Part shown: piece by piece, positions 5,218 through 38,085 of the stretch
Layout of the letters: each line of letters opens with the position of its first letter
Numbering within the stretch: position 1 is the first letter of the stretch
Source of the DNA: Prevotella sp.
GTDB taxonomy: Bacteria; Bacteroidota; Bacteroidia; Bacteroidales; Bacteroidaceae
Direction of reading: 5' to 3'
Assembly (NCBI GenBank): GCA_017960525.1
Contig: JAGCZA010000007.1
Coordinates: 33,600-97,599 of the forward strand
DNA length: 64,000 bases
Program-made: the position numbers and the translations under genes
Notes under the pieces: generated by a model
The model's database searches: none
Told to the model about the DNA's origin: nothing
Seen by the model: only the letters and a program-made list of their open reading frames with translations

Positions 5218-8200
5218 TCAGAACGACACGTTGATACCGAAGGTCATCTTGCGGAGGTTGGGATAGCGTCCGTAGGTGCCGCCGTAACTGGCCCACGACT
5301 TTCCGGGGTACGGGTTGTAGAGGTAGAGGGCGTTCTGTATGGTGAAGTTCAGTCGGACGTTGCTCACGCCGATGGGCTTGAGCCAGTTCTTGGGCAGACT
5401 GTAAGCCAGCGAGACGTTGCGCAGGGTAACGTTGGCGGCATTGACAAGCCAGAAACTCGATGCCTGCTCGTTGATGCTGCTGTACTTCATATTGGGGTAG
5501 GCAGCCTCGGTATTGCGGGGCACGGTGACATTGCCGCTGGCGTCGTAGATGTCCTCGTAAACGAACATATCGCTCCAGAAGGAGGGCACATTCTGATACT
5601 CCAGGTCGTCAGCCGACTTGCGGAAGTCGGTCTGCACAATGTCGTAGGCACCCCAAGCAGCGGAAAGTTGGGCCGTCAATGAAAGGTCGCGCCACGAACC
5701 ACCGAAGTTCACGGTGAAGCCGTAGGGGTTGCTTGAGAACTTCGACAGTTGCACATAGTCGTTCTGGTTGATCTTGCCGTCAGGACCACCGTAGTTGCCC
5801 GTGCCGTCGTTGTCGCCATGCATGTCGGCATAGATAAGTGTGCCGGGGTGGACGTCGTCGATGGTCTTGCCGAAGTAGGTGGTGATGTTATTCTCAGTAA
5901 AGTATTCCTGAATCTCCTGGTAACTGCGGAACATACCGAGGCACTTCAGACCCCAGACGCCACGATCCATACGCTCGCCCTTGACCTGGCTGTCATATTC
6001 GGGCGTGGCGGGGAACGGGCCTTCCAGAATCTTGTTGTCGTTCCAGCCAGTGGAGAACTTGACCCAGTAGGTCCAGTCCTTGCCAATCTTGTCGCGCCAG
6101 CCCAGATTCAGTTCCCAGCCCCAGTTGTCCACGGCACCGTAGTTCTCGGGCGTGGCCTGCGTGCCCACGGTGGTGGGGAAGAATGACGTGCCAGTATAGG
6201 TCATAAACATATCGCGGCCACGGTCGTAGTAGTAGTTGAAGTCCACGGAAAGACGTCCGTCGAGGAAGCGCATATCGAGACCCACATTGGTCTTATAGTT
6301 CTTGTCCCAGTGTACGTTGGGATTCACGCCACGCACAGGCATAACCGAACCGGCGGAGACGGGGGTGTTGGTCGTCGACTGGCCGAAGACGGCACCCTTG
6401 TCGAGGTCGCGGTTATACTGCTGGCGCCAGAGGAAGGCCACGATGTTGTCGCGTCCGAGGTAACCCCAACTGGCACGAATCTTCAGGAAATTAAACCAGG
6501 GGAGGGACTTCTTGAACCACTCCTCTTCGCTGACCACCCAGCCGGCACTAACGCTGGGGAAGTAGCCCCAACGGTTTTCGGGGGCGAACTTCGAACCGTT
6601 ACCGTCGGCACGGAAGAGGAACTCCAGCAGATACTTGTCGGCGTAAGCGTAGTTGATACGAGCCACGTGCGAGAGCATACCGCCCACGCCACGGTTGAAA
6701 CTGGTGGCCTGGTCGCCAGTGGCCGACTTCGATTGTCCGTCGGTATAACTGACTGGGTCGGTGATTTCGCCCGTCAGGTCTTCCCACTCGTTCTCAGAGC
6801 GCTCCAGCGTATAGAGGGCACTCACGTCGTGTTGTCCAATCTTGCGGGCGTACTGCAGGGTGAAGTTCAACTGGTAGGAATCGTTACGCTGCATAGAACG
6901 CTGCAGCAGACTGCCATTGTTCAGCGTCAGCGTGGAGAGCGTGCTGGCATTGTACCAGTCGGCAGTATTCTGTCCGGCCCAAGTGTAGAGGTGCGGATAG
7001 TCGGCGTTGCGCTCCTGCAGTTGATAGACATCCATGAAAGTCTTCATGGTGTTGTTTTTAGAATTGTTGATGGTCTTCGAGTACGACACGCGGGCGGTGA
7101 GTCCCTTCAAAGGCTTGATGAAGCCAAGGTCGAAGGATAGGGCACCATTGATGGTCATATTGTTGGTCATATTGCGCACATAGTCGTCGCAACTTTGCAC
7201 GGCCTCGAAGTTGTAGAGGCGGGTGTCGCTCGTGGGTATGACGTTCTGCATACCGGAGTAGACCAGCGGGTAGCCGTCAACCGAACTGGGCACGAAGGGC
7301 AGATGGGCCATCAGGTACTTGTAGTCGCCGTCGGTGCCTCCACCCTTGGCAATGATGGCATTATTCTTTTTGCCGTAGTCGCCGCTCACTTCGAGGGTGG
7401 CCTTTACATACTTGCCGATGTTGGTGTTCACGCCTGCACGGTAGTTCCAGCGGTCGTAGTCGAGTTTGCCGATATTACCGTCCTGGTTGAAATAGGAAAC
7501 GTTGGCAAAATAGGTGGCGTTGTCGGAGCCGCCGCTCACGTTAATGCTGTGGCGGTGGGTCAGGGCGGCCCGCCATTCGTCGTCGAGCAGGTCGTAGTTC
7601 AGGTTCTTCATCTGCTCCAGTTCGTTCTGCTGGAAGAGCACGCGGGCATTGTCCACATAGTCCTTTGTGGCTGTGCCTGCGGCGGTGACTGCGTTCCACA
7701 CACGGCCATAGTCGTAGGCCGACAGCATCTTTGGGGTGAAGATGGCATCGGTCCATCCGAGTTGTCCGTTATAAGAGATGCGTGCAGCCCCTGCCTTGCC
7801 CTTCTTCGTCTTGACGAGGATGACACCGTAGGCCGAGCGTGCGCCGTAGACGGCGGCGGCAGCGTCCTTCAGCACTGTGATGCTCTCCACCTCACTGATG
7901 TCGAGGTTGTTGAACGCCTCCTCGGTGGAGATGAAGTCGTCGATGACGTAGAGCGGCGAAGCATTGGGGTCGCCGCCATTGGTGGCTCCGGGGGTGTTCT
8001 GTGTGTTGGCCCCGGCGTTGCGGATTTGCAGCGAGGGGCTTTGTCCGGGACGGTAGGCTCCGGCGCCACGGCTGACGCTTACGCCATTGAACTGTCCGGC
8101 GAGGGCGTCGCCCAGGCTTCCTACAGAGAGGTCTTTCAGTTCGTCGGCGCTGATGGCCTCGACGGCACCAGTCACGTTCTTCATTTTCTGTGTGCCATAG

Positions 8201-27804: not shown

Positions 27805-28728
27805 ATGGCAGAACACAATCATTCACACGAGCATCATGCTCAACCTACGAGCCGAATCGAAGAGGCTCTGAAGAAGTATAATCTGGACATCACCGACGCC
27901 GAAGTGAGCGAGGCTGTGAAGAAAATCATCGCTGAGAAAGTGCACGAAAACGACACGGTGGAAGTGAAGAAATTCCTGATGGGCAGCGTGGAACTGACCA
28001 CCCTGAAGACCACCGACAGCGACGAGAGCGTGCTGGCTTTCACCGAGAAAGTGAACCAGTTTGAGGAAGCCTACCCCACCCTACCCCACGTGGCCACCAT
28101 CTGCGTCTATCCGAAGTTCGCCAAGATTGTGAGCGAGACACTAGAGGTTGAAGGCGTTGAAATCGCCTGCGTTTCGGGCAGTTTCCCCAGCAGTCAGTCG
28201 CTCATCGAGGTGAAGACCATCGAGACTCAGTTGGCCATCAAGGACGGCGCTACAGAGATAGACATCGTGCAGCCCGTCGGCGCATTCCTGGCAGGCGATT
28301 ACGAGACCGTCGTAGACGAAATCCAGCAGCAGAAAGAGGCTTGTGGCGAACAGGATATGAAGGTGATTCTTGAAACAGGATGCCTCAAAACGGCCAAAAA
28401 CATCAAGATTGCCTCAATTCTTGCTATGTATGCGGGAGCCGACTATATCAAGACCTCCACAGGAAAACTGGAGCCGGCTGCCACACCAGAAGCCGCCTAT
28501 GTGATGTGCCAGGCCATCAAGGAGTACTACGACGAGACCGGCATCCAAATAGGTTTCAAGCCTGCCGGCGGCCTCAATTCGGTGATGGACGCACTCATCT
28601 ACTACACCATTGTGAAGGAAGTGCTGGGCGAAAAGTGGCTCACCAACAAGTGGTTGCGTCTCGGCACCTCACGCCTTGCCAACCTCTTGTTGAGCGAAGT
28701 CATTGGTAAGGAGACCAAGTTCTTCTAA
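27805..28728 (+). CDS. deoC: Deoxyribose-phosphate aldolase
   Basis: A 307-residue class I aldolase that splits deoxyribose-5-phosphate into glyceraldehyde-3-phosphate and acetaldehyde. The Schiff-base lysine lies in DYIKTSTGKLEPAATPEAA. Other family blocks are TICVYPKFAKIV, VEIACVSGSFPSSQS, EIDIVQPVGAFLAGDY and GFKPAGGLNSV. The N-terminus is His-rich (MAEHNHSHEHHAQ) and extends the protein beyond the roughly 220 residues of the E. coli-size enzyme, as in other Bacteroidetes DeoC. It is the last gene before a bidirectional terminator. Confidence 0.97.
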   Translation: MAEHNHSHEHHAQPTSRIEEALKKYNLDITDAEVSEAVKKIIAEKVHENDTVEVKKFLMGSVELTTLKTTDSDESVLAFTEKVNQFEEAYPTLPHVATICVYPKFAKIVSETLEVEGVEIACVSGSFPSSQSLIEVKTIETQLAIKDGATEIDIVQPVGAFLAGDYETVVDEIQQQKEACGEQDMKVILETGCLKTAKNIKIASILAMYAGADYIKTSTGKLEPAATPEAAYVMCQAIKEYYDETGIQIGFKPAGGLNSVMDALIYYTIVKEVLGEKWLTNKWLRLGTSRLANLLLSEVIGKETKFF

Positions 28729-28743
28729 AGAGCGTAAGAAAAG

Positions 28744-28771
28744 AAAAGCAGCACAGGGTTTGCCTTGTGCT
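28744..28771. terminator. Bidirectional terminator between deoC and the polyprenyl synthase
   Basis: AGCAGCACA at 28744-28752 pairs with TGTGCTGCT at 28763-28771. The minus strand continues with TTTTCTTTTC, so it is strongest for the polyprenyl synthase transcript. Confidence 0.8.
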
Positions 28772-28790
28772 GCTTCGTTGTTTATACGGG

Positions 28791-29768
28791 TTACTTGTTG
28801 CGATGAATCACGTAGTCAAGATAGGTGGTCAGCGACTTATTGATCTCCGGGTCAGTCACCGATGTATTGATGAACTTCAGGGCCTCGTTTCGGTAGTCAT
28901 TCATTCGTTCTTCTGCATACTCGATACCGCCACACTGTTTGGTAAAGTCCACTAAAACCGCGATTTCATCAGAGTTGATGGTGCCTGCCTTCACCTTTTT
29001 GGCAAGCGTGAGCATCGAGTCGAAAGGCGTGTTTTTCAGGGCGTAGATGACAGGGAGTGTCAGTTTTCCTTCTGCCATATCGTTACCGGTGGGCTTGCCT
29101 ATTTCCTTTGAGTCGAAATAGTCGAAAATATCGTCACGAATCTGGAACATAATGCCCAGATTGCGCCCGAACTCAGTTGCTTTTTCCACCTCTTCTTCAG
29201 TCGCTCCGGCAGAAAGGGCACCAATGGCCGCACACGACTCGAACAAAACAGCAGTCTTGTTTTGGATGATGCGATAATAGACCTCCTCAGAAATCTCTTC
29301 TTCTTGAATGTTAGAGAGTTGCAAGAGTTCGCCTGAAGCAAGCGTCCTGCCCAACTGAGCCAAGTTCTCTATGATGGCGCGATTGTCGGTGTAAGCGACT
29401 CGGAGCAAGGCGGTGGAAAGGATATAGTCGCCTACAAGAACTGCCGTCTTGTTGTCGAAAGAGGCGTTCACCGACGCCTGGCCACGTCGCTCCGAACTCT
29501 CGTCTACCACATCATCGTGCACCAAAGATGCCGTATGCAGCAATTCAATGCCTATGGCAGAGTTCAGGGTGGTCTGGGTCACCTTGCCATAGTTCTTGGC
29601 CATAAGCAACATCAAGATAGGCCTCATACGCTTTCCGCCCCGCTGGCGAATGTGTGACAATACTTTTGCAAGCAATCCCTCGTCGTAGGTCATCACCTCT
29701 GAGAATTGCTCTGTAAACAAGTTAAATTCCTGTTCTATCGGTCTTTTAATAAGCGATAATTGGTCCAT
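28791..29768 (-). CDS. All-trans polyprenyl diphosphate synthase
   Basis: A 325-residue trans-isoprenyl diphosphate synthase that extends an allylic diphosphate with isopentenyl diphosphate. The first aspartate-rich motif is in LVHDDVVDESSERRG, and the second is DDIFDYFDSKEIGKPTGNDMAEGK. GGKRMRPILMLLMA binds substrate. By analogy with IspB-like enzymes of Bacteroidales it probably makes the side chain of menaquinone; chain length cannot be read with certainty. A TACTTTTG promoter element (29786-29793) lies 17 nt upstream. Confidence 0.94.
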   Translation of the reverse strand: MDQLSLIKRPIEQEFNLFTEQFSEVMTYDEGLLAKVLSHIRQRGGKRMRPILMLLMAKNYGKVTQTTLNSAIGIELLHTASLVHDDVVDESSERRGQASVNASFDNKTAVLVGDYILSTALLRVAYTDNRAIIENLAQLGRTLASGELLQLSNIQEEEISEEVYYRIIQNKTAVLFESCAAIGALSAGATEEEVEKATEFGRNLGIMFQIRDDIFDYFDSKEIGKPTGNDMAEGKLTLPVIYALKNTPFDSMLTLAKKVKAGTINSDEIAVLVDFTKQCGGIEYAEERMNDYRNEALKFINTSVTDPEINKSLTTYLDYVIHRNK

Positions 29769-29785
29769 ATCATAGAATTTTGATA

Positions 29786-29793
29786 CAAAAGTA
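29786..29793 (-). promoter_or_regulatory. -7 element of the polyprenyl synthase gene
   Basis: TACTTTTG on the minus strand, 17 nt before the ATG. Confidence 0.55.
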
Positions 29794-29854
29794 CAGAAAA
29801 AATTGCAGTATTGGGAAATTTTTTAGTAATTTTACACGAAAATTCTGAAATAAT

Positions 29855-32800
29855 ATGGATAAACTCTTCCTAATCGACGCTTACGCGCTCATTTACCGTT
29901 CTTACTACGCCTTTATCAAGAACCCTCGAATCAATTCCAAAGGGCTGAACACATCGGCCATCATCGGCTTTGTCAACACACTCCAAGAAGTGCTGGAAAA
30001 GGAACAGCCGAAGTATCTTGGTGTGGCCTTTGACCCCCACGGGCCAACCTTCCGTAGCGAGGCTTTCCCCGAATACAAAGCCCAGCGGGAAAAGACACCA
30101 GAAGACATCACCCGCGCCATACCCATCATCAAGGACCTGCTCAAGGCCTACCGCATACCGGCCATTCAGATAGACGGGTACGAGGCCGACGACGTGATTG
30201 GTACACTGGCCAAAAAGGCCGATTCCATCGACGGCATCGAAACCTTTATGCTCACACCCGACAAGGACTACGGACAACTAGTGAGCGAGCGCAGCCGCAT
30301 CTACCGTCCGCGCCATGGTGGTGGCTACGAAGTGATGGGTCCGGCCGAGGTGTGCCAGAAGTATGGCATCCCCCACCCTACCCTCGTCATCGACCTCCTG
30401 GCACTGATGGGCGATTCGGCCGACAATTTCCCCGGCTGTCCCGGGGTGGGCGAAAAGACCGCCACGAAACTCATCAACGACTTTGGCTCTGTGGAACAAC
30501 TGCTCCAGCGGACGGAAGAACTGAAGGGCGCCCTGAAGAAGAAAGTGGAGGAGCACGCCGACGACATACGCATGAGTTACTTCCTGGCAACCATCAAGAC
30601 CGACGTTCCGGTGGAGCTTGACCTCGACAGCCTGAAAATTGCCTCCCCCGACGAGGAAGCATTAGGAAAACTGTTCGCCGAACTGGAGTTCAAGAGCCTG
30701 GCAGAGCGAGTTCTTAAAAAATCAGAAAAAACATCAAAAAGTAACAATGGTCAGCTTTCTCTCTTTGAAAATTTTCCGACCGTCGGGGAGGAAACTCCAA
30801 AATTTTCAAGTTTTGAGACCATTAAAACCACTCCTCACGACTATAAACTCATTGATAATGAGGAAGAAATGCGCCGCATTTGTGACTTTTTTAGGACAAA
30901 TGAAATTCTTTGTTTAGATACGGAGACCACTTCCACCCACCCAATCGATGCCGAATTGGTGGGTTTGAGCTTCGCCGTGGAGCCTCACAAGGCATTTTAC
31001 GTTCCCATTCCGGCCAATCGTGAAGAAGCGTTAAAGATTCTTGAAATATTCAAACCATTATACGAAGACCCCCAAATTCTGAAGATTGGGCAGAACCTGA
31101 AGTACGATTTAGAAGTTTTAAGAAACTATAACATTCAGTTGCAAGGGCCGATGTGGGACACCATGATTGCCCATTACCTCATCCAGCCAGAGCTTCGCCA
31201 CAACATGGACTTTATGGCTGAGATATATCTTAACTATAAAACCATCCACATTGACGAACTAATTGGTAAAAAAGGGAAAAATCAACTAAGTATGCGAGAT
31301 TTAAACCCTAAACAGGTAAAAGATTATGCTTGCGAAGATGCAGATGTTACATTACAATTAAAGCTAAAATTAGAAAATGAACTGATTAATTATAGTTGCG
31401 AAAAACTATTTTATGATATTGAAATGCCATTAATGCAAGTATTAGCAGAGATGGAAATAAATGGAGTTTGTATAAATGATAAATACCTTAAAGAGACTTC
31501 AAATATATTCAACAAGAAACTAAACGATTTAAAACAAGAAATCTATAACTTGGCGGGTGAAGAATTTAATATTTCTTCGCCAAAACAAGTTGGTGATATT
31601 TTATTTGGTAAACTGAAAATTATAGATAATCCTAAGAAAACCAAGTCTTGGCAATACGTCACGAATGAAAAAGAGCTATTGCTTTTAAAAGATGCTCACG
31701 TAATTGTTAATAAAATATTGGAATACAGAAAGTTAAATAGTATTCTATCAGATAGGACGAAGAGAAAAATTCAGCCATCGCAAACCCTTGATTTATTTGA
31801 ACCAAATAATGATGACCAAGTTAGTAACAATAACAGCAAGCTATCGCATCTTGAAGTTTCTAAACAAATGAACTTACTAGAAAAGGAGATATTTGAAATA
31901 GCTGGTGAGAAATTTAAAATTATGTCACCAAAACAAGTTGGCTCTATCCTTTTCGACAAGATGAAAATCATAGACAATCCAAAAAAGACTGAAACATGGC
32001 AATATGTAACAAATGAGGAAATACTGCAACAATTAAAAGGAAAACATAAAATTGTAGAGAAAATTCTAAGTTATAGAGAGACAGAAAAATTAGTTGGAAC
32101 ATATGTTGATGCTCTCCCTAACCTTGTAAACAAGAGAACAGGTCATATACATACTTCATTCAATCAAACTATAACAGCTACTGGACGTTTGTCTTCAAGC
32201 GATCCCAACCTACAAAACATACCAGTACGTGGCGAAGATGGTAAAGAAATAAGAAAAGTATTTGTACCTGAACCTGGGTGTCTTTTCTTCTCAGCAGATT
32301 ATAGCCAAATCGAATTGCGAGTAATGGCACATCTTTCTGGAGATAACAATATGATAGAAGTATTCAAAGAAGGCAAAGATTTGCACGCAGCTACAGCGGC
32401 TACCATATACAAAAAAAACATAGATGAAGTTAGTCGCGATGAACGTACAAAATCGAAGCGGGCAAACTTTGGTATCATTTATGGAATAACTGTATTTGGC
32501 CTTGCTGAGCGTCTTAGTATTTCTAGAGAGGAATCCAAACAATTGATAGATGGCTTTTTTGAAACTTTCCCCAAGGTGAAAGACTATATGAATAAGGCCA
32601 TAGAAGAGGCGAGAAAAAGAGAATATGTAGAAACGCTATTTGGTCGTCGTAGATATCTTAAAGACATTAATTCACAGAACGCAACTGTTAGGGGTTACGC
32701 AGAACGCAACGCTATTAATGCTCCTATTCAAGGAACAGCTGCCGATATTATTAAAGTCGCTATGATTCGTATTTTCCAACGTTTCAAAAAGGAGAATATA

Positions 32801-32971
32801 CGCTCGAAAATGATTCTACAAGTTCATGACGAATTGAATTTTTCTGTTTATCCAGAAGAAAAAGAAATAGTAAAGCAAATTGTGATAGAAGAAATGCAGA
32901 ACGCAATTCAGATGAATGTGCCTCTGATTGCAGATTGTGGATTTGGAAATAACTGGTTAGAAGCTCACTAA
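29855..32971 (+). CDS. polA: DNA polymerase I, chimeric and with a duplicated thumb segment
   Basis: A 1038-residue family A polymerase with all active sites intact. A 5'-3' nuclease (residues 1-290) is followed by a linker with a clamp-binding-like QLSLF (300-304). The 3'-5' exonuclease has DTET at 355, NLKYD and YACEDAD. The polymerase has motif A DYSQIELR (815), motif B KRANFGIIYG and motif C QVHDELNF (989). Residues near 550-630 and 667-746 are diverged copies of one thumb segment, 116 residues apart (EIYNLAGEEFNISSPKQVG and EIFEIAGEKFKIMSPKQVG); the spacer carries QTLDLF at 643-648. Without the extra copy the length would be a normal 920. Base composition shifts from GC-rich to AT-rich near 31.2 kb, and a GC-rich polA 3' remnant lies at 34.9-35.2 kb. 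Confidence 0.96.
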   Translation: MDKLFLIDAYALIYRSYYAFIKNPRINSKGLNTSAIIGFVNTLQEVLEKEQPKYLGVAFDPHGPTFRSEAFPEYKAQREKTPEDITRAIPIIKDLLKAYRIPAIQIDGYEADDVIGTLAKKADSIDGIETFMLTPDKDYGQLVSERSRIYRPRHGGGYEVMGPAEVCQKYGIPHPTLVIDLLALMGDSADNFPGCPGVGEKTATKLINDFGSVEQLLQRTEELKGALKKKVEEHADDIRMSYFLATIKTDVPVELDLDSLKIASPDEEALGKLFAELEFKSLAERVLKKSEKTSKSNNGQLSLFENFPTVGEETPKFSSFETIKTTPHDYKLIDNEEEMRRICDFFRTNEILCLDTETTSTHPIDAELVGLSFAVEPHKAFYVPIPANREEALKILEIFKPLYEDPQILKIGQNLKYDLEVLRNYNIQLQGPMWDTMIAHYLIQPELRHNMDFMAEIYLNYKTIHIDELIGKKGKNQLSMRDLNPKQVKDYACEDADVTLQLKLKLENELINYSCEKLFYDIEMPLMQVLAEMEINGVCINDKYLKETSNIFNKKLNDLKQEIYNLAGEEFNISSPKQVGDILFGKLKIIDNPKKTKSWQYVTNEKELLLLKDAHVIVNKILEYRKLNSILSDRTKRKIQPSQTLDLFEPNNDDQVSNNNSKLSHLEVSKQMNLLEKEIFEIAGEKFKIMSPKQVGSILFDKMKIIDNPKKTETWQYVTNEEILQQLKGKHKIVEKILSYRETEKLVGTYVDALPNLVNKRTGHIHTSFNQTITATGRLSSSDPNLQNIPVRGEDGKEIRKVFVPEPGCLFFSADYSQIELRVMAHLSGDNNMIEVFKEGKDLHAATAATIYKKNIDEVSRDERTKSKRANFGIIYGITVFGLAERLSISREESKQLIDGFFETFPKVKDYMNKAIEEARKREYVETLFGRRRYLKDINSQNATVRGYAERNAINAPIQGTAADIIKVAMIRIFQRFKKENIRSKMILQVHDELNFSVYPEEKEIVKQIVIEEMQNAIQMNVPLIADCGFGNNWLEAH

Positions 32972-32983
32972 TTGATAAACGAC

Positions 32984-33925
32984 ATGGCTACATATAATAA
33001 AAATATGGTTAATTTCGTCGCAATAGACTTAGAAACAGCAACTTCTGACAGAAGTAGCATTTGCCAGATAGGCATTACCGAAGTCATTGAAGGAAAAATT
33101 CTAGAACCTAAAAGCTGGTTAGTTCAACCTAAAGGAAATATCTATGATCCTATGAATATCTTGATTCATGGAATAACTCCTGATGACACTATTAATAGTC
33201 CTTCATTTCCTGAAGTTTGGAAAGATGTTTTACCATTCGTACAAAACAAGGTTGTTGTTGCACATAATACGTCCTTTGATATGTATGCCCTAAGGAAAGC
33301 GTTTGATGAGTATTCAATGGAATACCCAACATTTGACTATTACTGCACTTTACGTATAGCACGATATATTATCAAAGGATGTTATAGCTATTCGTTGGAT
33401 GTTATTTCTAATTATTTGGGGCTGGACTTTGGTAATCATCATAAGGCTGATAGTGATTCATTAGGATGTGCGCTTCTTTTGTTAAAATGCTTAGAAAAAG
33501 AAAATTGCACTCTTGATGAATTAGAAAATAAATACAACTTCCACAAAGGACAATTTGCACCAAATGTTTTTATTGCCCATCTTCAGAATGAAAAACCTTA
33601 TAAATATAAAACAATAATTAATGGCTTAGAAGAACATCCAGAATTAATAGATGAGGGTAATTATTTCTATGGAAAAACAGTTTGTTTTACTGGAACTTGT
33701 CAATATGGCTCCAGAAAAGACTTGCTTCAAAAGGTTAAAAACATTGGAGGAATACCTGTTGATAATGTCACTAATAATACTGACGTACTTGTTATTGGTC
33801 AACAAGATTATAGAGTTGTTGGTTCTGATGGAATAAGTAATAAGCAAAAGAAGGCGTTATCACTATTAGAAAAAGGTCATGAAATTGAAATATTAAGTGA
33901 AACCGAATTCATTAATAGAATATAA
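32984..33925 (+). CDS. DEDDh 3'-5' exonuclease with C-terminal BRCT domain
   Basis: A DnaQ-like exonuclease domain (about residues 8-175) has complete catalytic motifs: FVAIDLETA (D and E), VVVAHNTSFDMYAL (D) and HHKADSDS (H and D). A BRCT domain follows at about residues 215-305 (FYGKTVCFTGTCQYGSRKDLLQKVKNIGG...), similar to that of NAD-dependent DNA ligases. It should trim 3' ends and bind DNA or a partner through BRCT. The first possible starts are ATG 32984 and ATG 33005 (MVNFVAIDLETA), which also fits the family. It is 12 nt downstream of the polA stop and shares the AT-rich composition of the polA 3' half, so the two probably arrived together. Confidence 0.88.
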   Translation: MATYNKNMVNFVAIDLETATSDRSSICQIGITEVIEGKILEPKSWLVQPKGNIYDPMNILIHGITPDDTINSPSFPEVWKDVLPFVQNKVVVAHNTSFDMYALRKAFDEYSMEYPTFDYYCTLRIARYIIKGCYSYSLDVISNYLGLDFGNHHKADSDSLGCALLLLKCLEKENCTLDELENKYNFHKGQFAPNVFIAHLQNEKPYKYKTIINGLEEHPELIDEGNYFYGKTVCFTGTCQYGSRKDLLQKVKNIGGIPVDNVTNNTDVLVIGQQDYRVVGSDGISNKQKKALSLLEKGHEIEILSETEFINRI

Positions 33926-33943
33926 ACATAACAATTAATAAAT

Positions 33944-34771
33944 ATGAATACCAAGCAACTAAACATTTTTGAACAAATGGAAGCTACTAATCCTCTTAAG
34001 GGGAAACGTATTTGTTTAACAGGTGAGTTTCGAATGTCTCAAAAAGAACTGAACTCAAGACTGAAAGCTGTTGGCGTAATTGCCATAGATCGTATTTCAG
34101 ACACTCGCATTTATAAAGAGGGCGAAACTATACCACCAATTAAAGAATCGACCAGTTTTTTCGTTGTTGGTACAAACCCCAATGAAGATTCTTTGAAACG
34201 GTATACACTAAATCAACACGATGGGTATCATGCCAAAATGATAACTGAGGATAAACTATATGAATATCTCGATGGAATATTCACTAAGGAAGATATGGTC
34301 CCAGATAGTGTTGAGAAACAACTAAGCATTGACATAAGTTATTATAAATGGAGTGCCCCAACGATTAACGGAAAGACATTCATTTCTCGAGTGTCTTCAC
34401 CTCTAATATACGAAGAAGACAAAAATCCTATATCACAAAAGGAAATCTTTGTACCTGATATTACAGGTATTGATATGAACATATTCTATCAAATTATAGG
34501 CAATCTAGGAGGTTACGCTAACAAAGAGTATTTCGAGGACACCAATCTAATCTTAATTAGTGATGAAACCTTAAGGAACTTAGAGAAAGGAATTAAAAAT
34601 AATGTAATACTTGATATTGAAAACCGATATAATAAAAGCAACACCAAAATTTTTAATGTTCAATTCACAAGTGAATCTGATTTTATAAATTGGGTTAAAC
34701 GCAGGATGATATTATATCCTGATGAAAGCACTATTGAACTCCTTCAAAAATATGAGTTAAGCAAGATATAA
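33944..34771 (+). CDS. Protein with two BRCT domains and a clamp-binding-like N-terminus
   Basis: A 275-residue AT-rich gene, 18 nt after the exonuclease gene. The first BRCT-like domain (about residues 17-112) begins LKGKRICLTGEFRMSQKELNSRLKAVGV. A second, more diverged one (about 165-270) contains FVPDITGIDMNIFYQIIGNLGGYANKEYF. No catalytic motif was found, so it is probably an adaptor. The N-terminus KQLNIFEQM resembles the beta-sliding-clamp peptide QL[SD]LF, as do two sites in PolA. The trio polA-exonuclease/BRCT-BRCT/BRCT suggests a linked DNA-repair or replication module; this is inference. No known named family is assigned. Confidence 0.75.
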   Translation: MNTKQLNIFEQMEATNPLKGKRICLTGEFRMSQKELNSRLKAVGVIAIDRISDTRIYKEGETIPPIKESTSFFVVGTNPNEDSLKRYTLNQHDGYHAKMITEDKLYEYLDGIFTKEDMVPDSVEKQLSIDISYYKWSAPTINGKTFISRVSSPLIYEEDKNPISQKEIFVPDITGIDMNIFYQIIGNLGGYANKEYFEDTNLILISDETLRNLEKGIKNNVILDIENRYNKSNTKIFNVQFTSESDFINWVKRRMILYPDESTIELLQKYELSKI

Positions 34772-34920
34772 TATATAAATTTGTTCCATAATACGCTACC
34801 AAAAGCTACACAGGAAGGAGCTTCCACCACTCCACCCGCCCATCAAGGAGAGGGATAAAGCCCTGTGCAAACAGCTGAGAATACCCCTCCCCCAACCCCT
34901 CCCCTTATAGGGGCGGGGGG
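34772..34920. repeat. Junction region with GC-rich palindrome
   Basis: A short AT-rich tail after the BRCT gene changes into GC-rich sequence containing CTTCCACCACTCCACCCGCC and then a CCCCTCC...TTATA...GGGGCGGGG inverted repeat (about 34885-34920). The palindrome directly abuts the polA remnant, so it marks the right junction. It is similar in style to the palindrome after susD. Confidence 0.5.
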
Positions 34921-34922
34921 AG

Positions 34923-35166
34923 GAGATACGAAAGGCTTTCTTTTCGGAGCCAGGCTGTCTCTACTTCTCGGCAGACTACAATCAGCTAAGGCATCCAGTC
35001 GAAGATGATTCTCCAGGTGCACGATGAACTGAACTTCTCCGTTGTGCCAGAAGAGAAGGGTAGGGTGGAGGCTATCGTGCTTGAGGAGATGCAGCAGGCG
35101 CTGCAGTTGGCAGTGCCGCTGGTGGCTGACAGCGGCTGGGGCGATAACTGGCTGGAGGCGCACTAA
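34923..35166 (+). pseudogene. Remnant of a GC-rich polA 3' end
   Basis: Two out-of-frame blocks match the polymerase domain. Positions 34923-34988 encode EIRKAFFSEPGCLYFSADYN plus QL, covering motif A (compare EIRKVFVPEPGCLFFSADYS in the intact gene). Positions 34996-35166 encode a 56-codon end containing the motif C region MILQVHDELNFSVVPEE and finishing DNWLEAH-stop. The part between motifs A and C is deleted. The blocks have the GC-rich composition of the polA 5' half, so they are best explained as the original 3' end, displaced when AT-rich DNA took over the gene. Confidence 0.9.
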
Positions 35167-35254
35167 GGGGGGGTGGCTGAGCCATTTGCGCCCACTACAA
35201 AGTCGCCCTGCATCAGCCCCGGCGAACAGCTAATCACTTCATTGCAAGACAACT

Positions 35255-35815
35255 ATGCGAAGACTCTTGATTCCACTACTGCTGCTGACGGCCTGCACGC
35301 ACACACCCGAAAAGGGCGACCCGTCAGAACTGATGAAGACGGCCTTGCGCTACGACGCCGCAGGGCGGTATGAGGATGCCGCCGAATGGTACCGCAAGGC
35401 CGCCGAGCAGGGCCTTTCGGAGGCACAGAACAACCTCGGCGTGATGTACAAGGACGGGCAGGGCGTCAAGCAAGACTACAACGAGGCCGCCCGCTGGTTC
35501 CTGTTGGCTGCCTGTCAGGGTAACGTGCTGGCACAGTCGAACTTAGGCTGGATGTACCAGTCGGGTAGGGGAGTAGTCCAGAACTACGACTCCGCCTTCT
35601 ATTGGTACAAGCAAGCCGCTCTGAAAGGCCACGCCGCCGCCCAGAACAACCTGGGGCGGATGCTGCGCGACGGGCTTGGCGTGAAAGCCGACAGCGACAG
35701 CGCCCACTACTGGATAGAAAAGGCAGCCCTGCAAGGACTGCCTCAAGCACAAAAGAACCTGGAGCGGCTCGGCGTCAGCCCTTCTCCACCAGAATACGGG
35801 CGTCAACAGCAATGA
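35255..35815 (+). CDS. Sel1-repeat lipoprotein
   Basis: A 186-residue protein with a lipobox-like signal (MRRLLIPLLLLTAC, Cys 14). Four or so Sel1/TPR-like repeats follow, for example YRKAAEQGLSEAQNNLGVMYKDGQGV and YKQAALKGHAAAQNNLGRMLRDGLGV. Such proteins scaffold interactions in the periplasm; the partner is unknown. Its last 41 nt overlap the convergent acyl-CoA synthetase gene, so there is no room for a terminator between them. It would have followed the original polA end. Confidence 0.85.
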   Translation: MRRLLIPLLLLTACTHTPEKGDPSELMKTALRYDAAGRYEDAAEWYRKAAEQGLSEAQNNLGVMYKDGQGVKQDYNEAARWFLLAACQGNVLAQSNLGWMYQSGRGVVQNYDSAFYWYKQAALKGHAAAQNNLGRMLRDGLGVKADSDSAHYWIEKAALQGLPQAQKNLERLGVSPSPPEYGRQQQ

Positions 35816-37847
35816 CATCCTGCTCGTCGGCCAGCAGGGGGTTGATGTCCATTTCCTTAATCTCAGTGGCGAAGCGGAGCAGGGTAGAGAGGCGAACGAT
35901 AATCTCGGCATATTTCCGCTCGTTGATGCCCTTCTGTCCCCGCGTACCTTTCAATATCTTATAGCCGCGCAGCGAGTGAATCATCGAGTGGGCCTCCTCA
36001 TAGGAAAGGGGAGCCAAGCCGCTACTCACGTCCTTCAGCACCTCCACGAAGATGCCGCCCAGTCCGCAGAGCACCACGTGGCCGAAGCGCGGTTCATACT
36101 TCGCCCCGATGAAGAGTTCTGTGCCACGAATCATCTTCTGCACCATCACCGCCGTAGCCCCGTCGATACACATCATACGGTCGAACTCAGCACTCAGCAC
36201 CTCTTTTGAGCGGATGTTCAGGGCTACACCGCCCACGTCGCTCTTATGCACCGGCCCCACCACCTTTGCCACCACGGGATAGCCCGTCTTCTCTGCAAAG
36301 GCCAGCACCTCGTCTCTGTCGGCGCTGACGAACTCAGGCACCGTGGGAATGCCAGCGGCAGAAAGCAGGGCATGCACCGTCTCCGGCTGAAGAAAACCCT
36401 GACTGTCTATACCGTCGATGATTTTACGGATGCGAGGCACATCGACCCCGTTCACCACCACGTTCTGGTCGGCAGGGGCGGGCGTCTTCATCACCTGGGT
36501 GAGTGCTGTGGCCAGCGTCACCTCGTCGCTGAAGTTCACGTGGCCCTTCCTGAGAAACTCCTGCACCTCCGGCCCGGCCGTGTTCACACTGGGCAGGATG
36601 GGGAAGATGGGCTTGCGGCAAGTCATCATCTTCTTGTGCAGCACATCGTAGATTTCAAACACCTTCACCAGGCCAGGCGTGCCGAAAATGACCATAATGG
36701 CATCTATCTCGTCAAACCGCTGTTCGCAATAGTCGATGGCCGTGGCCAGATGTTCCGGCTGTGCCGTGGCTAAAATGTCGATGGGGTTGGCCACCGACGA
36801 GCCGGGCAGCAGCTTCTGTTTCAGTTCGTCGGCCACAGGGCCAAAGAGGGCAGGCACGTTGATGCCGCCTTTCGACAGCGCGTCGGTGAGCATCACGCCT
36901 GGGCCTCCGGCGTGAGTGATAATGGCAATGTTCAGTTGGGAACTGAGAGCGGAGTCGGTGGAATTGAAGATACACCCCACGGTGGTCAGTTCCTCGCGTG
37001 AGAAGCACCTGACGATGCCGGCCTTACGGAAGAGGGCCTCTACGGCAGCATCGCTGCTGGCAATGGCTCCCGTGTGACTGCTGGCGGCGCGGCTGCCTGC
37101 CGACGACGACCCCGCTTTGATGGCGGCGATGCGGCATCCTTTGCGTATGAGGCTGGTGGCGTGGAAGAGCAGTTTGTCGGGGTCGGCTATGTTTTCTATG
37201 TAAAGCAGCTTTACTGGCGAGTCGCGCTCCGGGTCGAAGTTTTCGTCCATATATTCCAGCACGTCCTCAATGCCTATCTGCCGCCCGTTGCCGATTGACC
37301 ATACTGAGTTGAACTGCAAGCCTTTCGTCACGGCACTCTCCAGGATGAAGACCGCCGTGGCCCCCGAGCCGGAAATGAAATCCACGCCCTTGGGGTTCAG
37401 TTGCGGGATGGGTTTGGTGAACACCGAATGGTGCCAGCGCGTGAGCAGGCCGATGCAGTTGGGGCCTATCAGCGCACAACCATACTTCTCGCACGCATCC
37501 AGTATCTGCTGTTCCAGCACGGCTCCTTCGGGCGTTTCCTCGCCAAAGCCCGCCGAAATGATGATGAAGGCCTTGACGCCCTTCTCGCTGGCCAGCAGTT
37601 CCACATATTGCGGACAGAAGCGGGCGGCCACCACCAGGATGGCCAGGTCGGTGGGCGGCAGCTCGCGGGCATCGTGGAAGGCCTTGATGCCCTGCACCTC
37701 GTCCTCCTTCGGGTTCACCACGCGCAGCGTGCCGCTATAGCCGCCACTCAACAGATTTCTCACCACAGCACCGCCTGGCTTGTGCACATTGTTCGAGCCG
37801 CCAATCACGACGATACTCTCAGGCTGCAACAGTTGTCGGTTGATCAT
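35775..37847 (-). CDS. Acyl-CoA synthetase (NDP-forming), fused alpha-beta
   Basis: A 690-residue protein. The CoA-binding Rossmann domain (residues 1-130, SIVVIGGSNNVHKPGGAVVRNLL) is followed by two succinyl-CoA-synthetase-like domains (about 150-460), including the active-site histidine region SHTGAIASSDAAVEALF. A C-terminal ATP-grasp domain (about 480-690) has GYPVVAKVVGPVHKSDVGGV and GLGGIFVEVLKDVS. The enzyme reversibly makes acyl-CoA and ADP + Pi from the acid, CoA and ATP, often yielding ATP from acetyl-CoA in fermentation. Substrate (acetate, propionate or branched acids) is not evident. Confidence 0.92.
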   Translation of the reverse strand: MINRQLLQPESIVVIGGSNNVHKPGGAVVRNLLSGGYSGTLRVVNPKEDEVQGIKAFHDARELPPTDLAILVVAARFCPQYVELLASEKGVKAFIIISAGFGEETPEGAVLEQQILDACEKYGCALIGPNCIGLLTRWHHSVFTKPIPQLNPKGVDFISGSGATAVFILESAVTKGLQFNSVWSIGNGRQIGIEDVLEYMDENFDPERDSPVKLLYIENIADPDKLLFHATSLIRKGCRIAAIKAGSSSAGSRAASSHTGAIASSDAAVEALFRKAGIVRCFSREELTTVGCIFNSTDSALSSQLNIAIITHAGGPGVMLTDALSKGGINVPALFGPVADELKQKLLPGSSVANPIDILATAQPEHLATAIDYCEQRFDEIDAIMVIFGTPGLVKVFEIYDVLHKKMMTCRKPIFPILPSVNTAGPEVQEFLRKGHVNFSDEVTLATALTQVMKTPAPADQNVVVNGVDVPRIRKIIDGIDSQGFLQPETVHALLSAAGIPTVPEFVSADRDEVLAFAEKTGYPVVAKVVGPVHKSDVGGVALNIRSKEVLSAEFDRMMCIDGATAVMVQKMIRGTELFIGAKYEPRFGHVVLCGLGGIFVEVLKDVSSGLAPLSYEEAHSMIHSLRGYKILKGTRGQKGINERKYAEIIVRLSTLLRFATEIKEMDINPLLADEQDVIAVDARILVEKG

Positions 37848-37948
37848 AATACATCATCTTGTTTAAGGATGCTGCAAAAATACGAAAAATAGCTGAATTA
37901 CCAACCTATTTTTGGAGAATTAACGCAATTGGGTGAAAAATGCCGAAA

Positions 37949-38033
37949 AATTTGGACGAACCAAACTATGAGAAAGGACGAACCAAACTACCAGTTTGGA
38001 CGAACCAAACTCCTGGTTTGGACGAACCAAATT
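37949..38033 (+). repeat. 22-bp-period palindrome array B (four units)
   Basis: Units 37949-37967, 37971-37989, 37993-38011 and 38015-38033 are separated by ATG, ACC and CCT. The core GGACGAACCAAA is invariant in all four. The third unit is the perfect palindrome AGTTTGGACGAACCAAACT. The array ends 52 nt before the dxs -33 box. Confidence 0.9.
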
Positions 38034-38085
38034 TTCAGCCTGGAGAAACAAAAGTCTGCTATACTGCAAATTTAGGCCAGTTTCT

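Follow-up and report, generated by a model that had tools for sequence, protein, structure and literature searches.

The polA locus and its displaced end

The window analysed here is a stretch of 64,000 nucleotides from Prevotella sp. (assembly GCA_017960525.1, contig JAGCZA010000007.1, positions 33,600 to 97,599). In its polA gene, which encodes DNA polymerase I (Pol I), a native GC-rich 5' part reaching to about 31214 is joined to an AT-rich 3' part that starts at about 31255. Two AT-rich genes, exoB and brct, follow, and behind them lie broken pieces of a GC-rich polA end. The AT-rich polA half, exoB and brct are together called the module, and loci lacking it block-free. The features are listed below, with amino acids (aa) numbered along the window polA protein.

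29855-32971, +: polA, a single open reading frame of 1038 codons, open across the left junction
29855..31214, +: native 5' part of polA (aa 1-453), with the 5'-nuclease and the first part of the 3'-5' exonuclease domain (Pfam)
31196..31256, +: left switch zone, at or just after HNMDFMAE, where identity to the block-free Prevotella locus L179 falls from 17-18/20 to 12-16/20 and the GC content at third codon positions (GC3) changes (aa 467)
31257..32971, +: foreign AT-rich 3' part of polA, with the rest of the exonuclease, thumb, palm and fingers (DNA_pol_A Pfam match; GC3 0.27)
31535..31755, +: thumb copy 1, aligned with copy 2; KIIDNPKKT and WQYVTNE occur in both
31781..31798, +: QTLDLF peptide in the linker between the thumb copies, as read from the sequence (QMPDLF in a second case, L164)
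31883..32105, +: thumb copy 2, with residues in aa 601-690 seen only in the window and L164 among 117 polA rows
32984..33925, +: exoB, a DnaQ-type (DEDDh) 3'-5' exonuclease with a C-terminal BRCT domain (PF00929, PF00533)
33944..34771, +: brct, a BRCT-type protein with a weak PF00533 match and an N-terminal clamp-like QLNIF
34883..34918, +: dispersed C/G-rich inverted repeat of 36 bp at the junction of cargo and remnant, CCC[AT]CCCCCAACCCCTCCCC
34917-34988, +: native polA remnant near motif A, aa 796-819 (tblastn, 71% to the module polA, E 8e-6)
34993..35166, +: native polA 3'-end remnant, aa 982-1038 and stop, in a different frame from the first remnant (tblastn, 74%, E 4e-22)
35255..35815, +: Sel1-repeat gene (Pfam Sel1)

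Over aa 1-455 of polA the GC3 was 0.62, and over aa 471-1038 it was 0.27. When two segments were fitted from aa 301 onward, the change point fell at aa 467, which was matched in none of 500 shuffles. The original prediction, made from the letters of the window, had placed the change from GC-rich to AT-rich at about 31.2 kb and had described the next two genes as AT-rich as well, and both statements agree with the measured values (GC 0.32-0.33 for exoB and brct; GC3 0.23 and 0.29, respectively). A dip in GC around aa 281-400 was considered as a second donor segment and dropped; it is ordinary, since in 22 of 29 relatives, too, the GC3 of aa 291-460 lies below that of aa 1-290. The native 5' part was 81% identical to L179 at the nucleotide level over 29855-31200, and identity then fell to 52-72% per 60 bp from 31235 to 31594. 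All Pol I domains (5'-nuclease, 3'-5' exonuclease and polymerase) were found in the window protein by Pfam and NCBIfam, with 1171 bits for NF004397. A search of the whole genome, a 3.97-Mb draft of 146 contigs that is 94% complete, found this polA and the two remnant pieces and no other polA copy. The chimera would have restored polA function. The nearest named relatives by polA search were Prevotella, many of them from the rumen.

The GC-rich scrap downstream (34917-34988 and 34993-35163 plus the stop codon) amounts to about 246 bp, and its earlier coordinates were right within a few bases. The best nucleotide match of the 3'-end remnant was L179 (78.5%). The Sel1 gene matched positions 7547-7990 of the block-free locus L182, about 150 bp past the end of the L182 polA, with 335 of 444 aligned columns identical. 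Because L179 is the best match of both the 5' part and the remnant, and because the Sel1 match follows polA in L182, the remnant in all likelihood represents the native 3' end at its original position. Upstream of polA, genes for a phosphoribosyltransferase, uvrC, D-Tyr-tRNA deacylase, MazG, DeoC and polyprenyl synthase (Pfam) are syntenic with polA in block-free relatives, and for deoC and the polyprenyl synthase gene this was so in all nine regions read. Apart from the window's own, no displaced polA end was found in 171 loci with a polA C-terminal match, many of which reach 0.5-6 kb past polA; one candidate, L225, was rejected as its two pieces belong to one gene.

The palindromic 36-bp repeat had 31 hits in the genome at up to 2 mismatches, versus 2 for the reversed control, and was placed by BLAST at 20 sites including the junction copy. 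Another repeat lies at about 37947-38056, between dxs and the acyl-CoA ligase gene; elsewhere in the genome, stretches of about 60-96 bp that match it at 79-92% are found close to several 36-bp repeat copies. No RNA families were found within 28500-36000.

A second species and the histories of the two polA halves

Relatives were drawn from a named genome collection, and 80 of 99 loci were kept. Among these, L164 alone matched the foreign polA half at full length (1740 nt). L164 comes from uncultured Prevotella sp. RUG126 (ONAK01000025.1), a different species in a separate assembly, and carries the block at the same place in polA. We take RUG126 to be a metagenome bin; the record title says uncultured isolate. 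Its AT-rich polA half is 82% identical to that of the window and also has the thumb duplication. Upstream lie uvrC, mazG, deoC and the polyprenyl synthase gene, and polA is followed by exoB, brct, a RhuM-family gene and the contig end. The RhuM-family gene (PF13310, L164 9546-10571) had no match in the window stretch behind brct. The exoB proteins of the two loci are 75-76% and the brct proteins 76% identical, with similar spacing between the genes (window versus L164, 12 versus 10 bp for polA-exoB and 18 versus 17 bp for exoB-brct). The GC3 values of the module also correspond (0.27/0.27 for the polA half, 0.23/0.26 for exoB and 0.29/0.32 for brct), with 0.62/0.46 for the 5' halves.

The borders of the block in L164 could be read against the block-free locus L136. 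Upstream, the two are 83-95% identical per 150 bp as far as the junction; of the 14 short segments read from 5994 onward, 13 had 10-16 of 20 bases identical and one had 19. From 10587 on, L164 again matches L136 (93%), starting at GCCCACTAAT, which is the last two codons of the L136 polA, the stop codon and the next base, and forms a 10-bp scrap of the native end in L164. The drop from L136 falls at 5974-5994, equivalent to aa 450-457, and the window switch falls between 31215 and 31256, at aa 454-467. Both left switches lie at or just after the conserved HNMD(F/Y)MAE, and their zones of 20-40 bp overlap. A syntenic relative with the same AT-rich polA end and no displaced copy had been named beforehand as the finding that would speak against insertion of foreign DNA; RUG126 comes half way to it, being syntenic, but it keeps about 10 bp of the old end and its 5' half is not sister to that of the window.

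Separate trees of the polA halves, also proposed at the outset, were in conflict. They were built from 56 of 91 passing rows, comprising those closest to the two chimeras and a further hand-picked set, on aa 1-448 without aa 407-431 (5') and on aa 475-535 and 741-1038 (3'), so that the thumb insert and the switch zone were excluded. In the 5' tree the partner of the window is L179 and that of L164 is L136 (100/99 in both cases), both partners being block-free, and L182 lies within the window's six-row group (95/87). In the 3' tree the window and L164 are sisters (100/100), and the stem leading to them measures 0.4 changes per site. In approximately unbiased (AU) tests, a clade of window and L164 was rejected for the 5' half (p-AU 5.6e-98), and for the 3' half window plus L179 (p 1.5e-4) and L164 plus L136 (p 0.019) were rejected. 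The conflict between the trees shows that the block moved horizontally, and it supports the original prediction that a foreign polA 3' half with cargo entered the gene and left the old end behind. In the 3' tree the foreign half nests in a 44-row Prevotella group (100/99), in which many forks are open; its most likely source is therefore a Prevotella polA which later diverged and turned AT-rich.

Between the window and L164, the proportions of synonymous (pS) and nonsynonymous (pN) differences were 0.77-0.83 and 0.06-0.14, respectively, in the thumb, the polymerase domain, exoB and brct. The blocks are old, and all three genes, the extra thumb included, are under purifying selection. Because this selection is seen while synonymous sites are saturated, and because the gene spacing is conserved, the three genes have the look of an operon that is maintained and not of chance cargo.

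The second species had been missed by the original prediction, as had the tandem thumb copy of about 100 residues that the window and L164 share. Among 117 aligned polA rows (open frames of at least 850 aa plus L164, with at least three genomes, G013, G018 and G032, counted twice), 115 were empty at aa 601-690. In the window protein, one Klenow segment (chain positions 242-272) is matched by two stretches. The thumb doubling was considered as a scar of two donors, and this was rejected: both copies share KIIDNPKKT and WQYVTNE, which are absent from the seven relatives printed, and the doubling is for this reason read as a probable duplication within the donor lineage. A search of 398 genomes gave a match in 350, and among the matches listed the window alone spans the thumb insert in one piece. 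In 298 genomes of RUG126's genus, RUG126 alone matched the insert; this set appears to be largely the same as the 398 genomes and did not report the window's genome, and is not an independent count. The peptide between the thumb copies (QTLDLF/QMPDLF) resembles clamp-binding peptides and is a putative clamp motif. As a separate observation, the linker of the 5'-nuclease and exonuclease domains in ordinary Bacteroidales Pol I (aa 281-345 in the window) carries a clamp-like motif, QL[DS]LF in most cases. It was present in 75 of the 117 rows, which are related and not independent, with no further match in their remaining 101,157 residues.

The exoB-brct pair and the search for a vehicle

ExoB matched the PADLOC profile PDC-S48/DEDDh (E 2e-30) and PRK06195 (E 9e-69), the latter with a score of 232 under the cut-off of 373; it shares the profile match with the PADLOC candidate, and a role in defence is putative. 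An N-terminal QLDMF, QQDLF or QQNLF was present in nine of ten brct homologues read, and one (L083, 27% identical) was without it.

Counting the window's own, 9 of 398 genomes of the genus had a brct homologue at E 1e-6, as did 17 of 301 genomes of the family at E 0.001. Six of the eight other loci in the genus were read, and all six had an adjoining exoB-type gene and no polA in the 12-19 kb read. In the family, exoB stood beside brct in 6 of the 16 other homologues. Relatives of exoB occurred in 77 phage and 128 plasmid records, all below 60% identity. Since the pair is found without polA, and since exoB has relatives in phage and plasmid records, exoB-brct is a wider type of cargo, of which the polA-linked form is a special version. 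At 12 exoB-brct loci the upstream and downstream flanks were compared for a pattern of gene plus remnant, and ten had no match; L260 had a match of 25 bp and L262 had matches of 19 and 33 bp, one of them also found by tblastx (12 residues). In genome G704 an exoB 74% identical to that of the window (L261 3419-5155) has a fused N-terminal extension of about 270 residues without Pfam match, and a brct of 41% identity (L261 2621-3406) follows it. From this arrangement, shuffling of exoB and brct among cassettes seems likely.

A phage or plasmid vehicle was rejected, as brct had no match in either collection and the exoB matches were all below 60% identity. Among the matches listed, the four phage records most similar to the polA half were short unannotated contigs (53-65%). 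As had been predicted, no integrase was found; integrase, transposase and relaxase families were absent among polA, exoB, brct and the RhuM-family gene, L164 being seen up to its contig end. No direct repeat of at least 14 bp common to both window junctions was listed, and the L164 flanks, up to 4 kb on each side, had no mutual match at the thresholds used. In the literature no report of such a polA replacement, a doubled thumb or co-travelling partners was found, most subscription journals lying outside the coverage.

Origin of the chimera and comparison with known systems

We consider it probable that a horizontally moving operon, consisting of a modified polA 3' half (polA*), exoB and brct, recombines into the resident polA of Prevotella chromosomes. 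The left join would arise by homologous recombination inside polA, and in both species this junction lies in shared homologous sequence (HNMD(F/Y)MAE). The right join would be illegitimate and made by host enzymes, either through homology-facilitated illegitimate recombination or through single-crossover insertion followed by deletion. A junction without homology, with a displaced old end, is present in the window and is weaker in L164 (10-bp match). Single-crossover insertion of a circle, with later decay of the displaced end, would give the same look. The foreign half, fused in frame in the window, replaces the native polymerase domain, with the partner genes directly behind it and the native 3' end remaining downstream as scrap. 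Because the native end is destroyed, the operon could not be lost without loss of Pol I and would be locked in. Its three products, a doubled-thumb Pol I, an extra proofreading-type exonuclease and a putatively clamp-binding BRCT protein, may act jointly at replication or repair forks, and a role in fork repair or in phage defence is conceivable. The original prediction had called the partner genes cargo; they are indeed carried with the polA half, but they do not appear incidental and look tied to the polymerase. More tentatively, the module may represent a new, integrase-free type of mobile operon that captures a core replication gene, with the modified polymerase half and its partners forming one self-locking machine.

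Several observations weigh against this reading. The arrangement is seen in two examples only, and in L164 a deletion of 47 nt within the exonuclease domain (about 5893-5894) disrupts the reading frame of polA, which is either a real split polymerase or an assembly fault. With the frame broken, a working polA chimera in RUG126 is only putative; no second polA was found in that genome. The coinciding left switches may reflect sequence conservation and not a defined end of the module. The groups used in the AU tests were named after the trees had been seen, and the p of 0.019 is modest. The genes downstream of polA in the window were not matched by the L179 sequence behind its polA. One of the four viral scans was empty, and the other three gave only distant homologues (exoB 50-56%, polA 32-38%, brct 26%), and the operon was not found in the plasmid and phage collections.

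The three genes could instead have been mere neighbours on an AT-rich Prevotella chromosome, imported passively by homologous recombination and without functional tie, which we regard as possible but doubtful. The position of the foreign half in the Prevotella clade (100/99, 44-row group) and the exoB-brct pairs without polA are in line with such an import. It leaves unexplained, however, why the same trio occurs with near-equal spacing and overlapping left switch zones in two lineages despite saturated synonymous sites, and why the thumb duplication is confined, among the 117 polA rows, to the two with the exoB-brct pair; the displaced end, moreover, requires an illegitimate right join anyway. 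It is unlikely that the block is a site-specific integrative element with the polA 3' half as its attachment gene and an integrase lost or acting in trans. The use of one target gene with overlapping left switch zones in two species would suit it, as would the native gene end retained on the right and the RhuM-family gene in L164, but the module genes and the RhuM-family gene include no integrase, transposase or relaxase family, and no direct repeat of at least 14 bp was listed at both window junctions. The roughly 580 codons replaced also go far beyond the usual attachment segments, and the left switches, at aa 450-457 in L164 and aa 454-467 in the window, may or may not lie at the same base.

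The synonymous saturation between the blocks shows their age and would also be expected had the block been inserted in a common ancestor and the 5' halves later been replaced by block-free alleles. This is very improbable, as each species pairs with a different block-free relative in the 5' tree (100/99), the deoC-polyprenyl synthase region of L164 is nearer to block-free L097 (77%) than to the window (70%), and the block would have to have been lost many times, with polA repaired exactly each time. Least credible is an assembly chimera of two strains. Both genomes are drafts, that of the window in 146 contigs, and a dispersed repeat lies at the right junction; yet the same architecture is present in a separate assembly of a different species, the window polA is one open frame over the left junction, and the flanking sequence is matched by block-free loci, for L164 by L136 both upstream and downstream, and for the window by L179 and L182.

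The genes of core replication are generally regarded as resistant to the replacement of single parts by foreign DNA. In the present case, two species have had half of Pol I exchanged at roughly the same position, with the partners staying with the polymerase half. If the partners depend on the altered polymerase, this would be a natural reshaping of a replication enzyme by mobile DNA and, at the same time, an undeletable cassette. A natural thumb-doubled Pol I would also be useful for questions of processivity or fidelity.

Gene-restoring integrative and conjugative elements (ICEs) and islands sit in guaA, icd and similar genes. The likeness to such elements proposed at the outset stands in that element DNA re-completes the target gene and the native end is displaced. 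It does not extend to the integrase and attachment (att) repeats, none of which were found here, nor to the extent of the exchange, about half the gene being replaced and not a short attachment segment. The closer analogue is 3'-end replacement with one-sided homology, reportedly described at type VI/Rhs loci by Koskiniemi in 2014. For type VI effectors and Rhs it has been proposed to occur via homology-facilitated illegitimate recombination (Kirchberger 2017, PMC5361080); in that model, the incoming DNA pairs with a conserved 5' anchor and is joined illegitimately at its other end, and the former 3' end is displaced downstream. The two share the conserved 5' anchor, the foreign 3' part with a partner, the displaced old end and the lack of a known integrase, and they differ in that the target here is Pol I instead of a toxin, the partner genes encode an exonuclease and a BRCT protein, and the incoming half brings its own extra domain.

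All domains of bacterial PolA1/Pol I (Klenow 1d9d, 8oo6) are shared by the window enzyme. The single thumb of PolA1 is not, the window and L164 having the tandem thumb region (extra copy in 2 of 117 rows). The thumb of T7 DNA polymerase also carries an insertion, the thioredoxin-binding domain, and both inserts could add a processivity contact, but here the insert is a thumb copy with a clamp-like peptide. In the PolA2 group, a clamp motif sits in a loop of the vestigial exonuclease domain (PMC12926913); in the module the putative clamp peptide lies between the thumb copies. The module thus resembles known 3'-end replacement in its way of working, while for polA as the target, the doubled thumb and the co-travelling partners no precedent was found in the literature covered.

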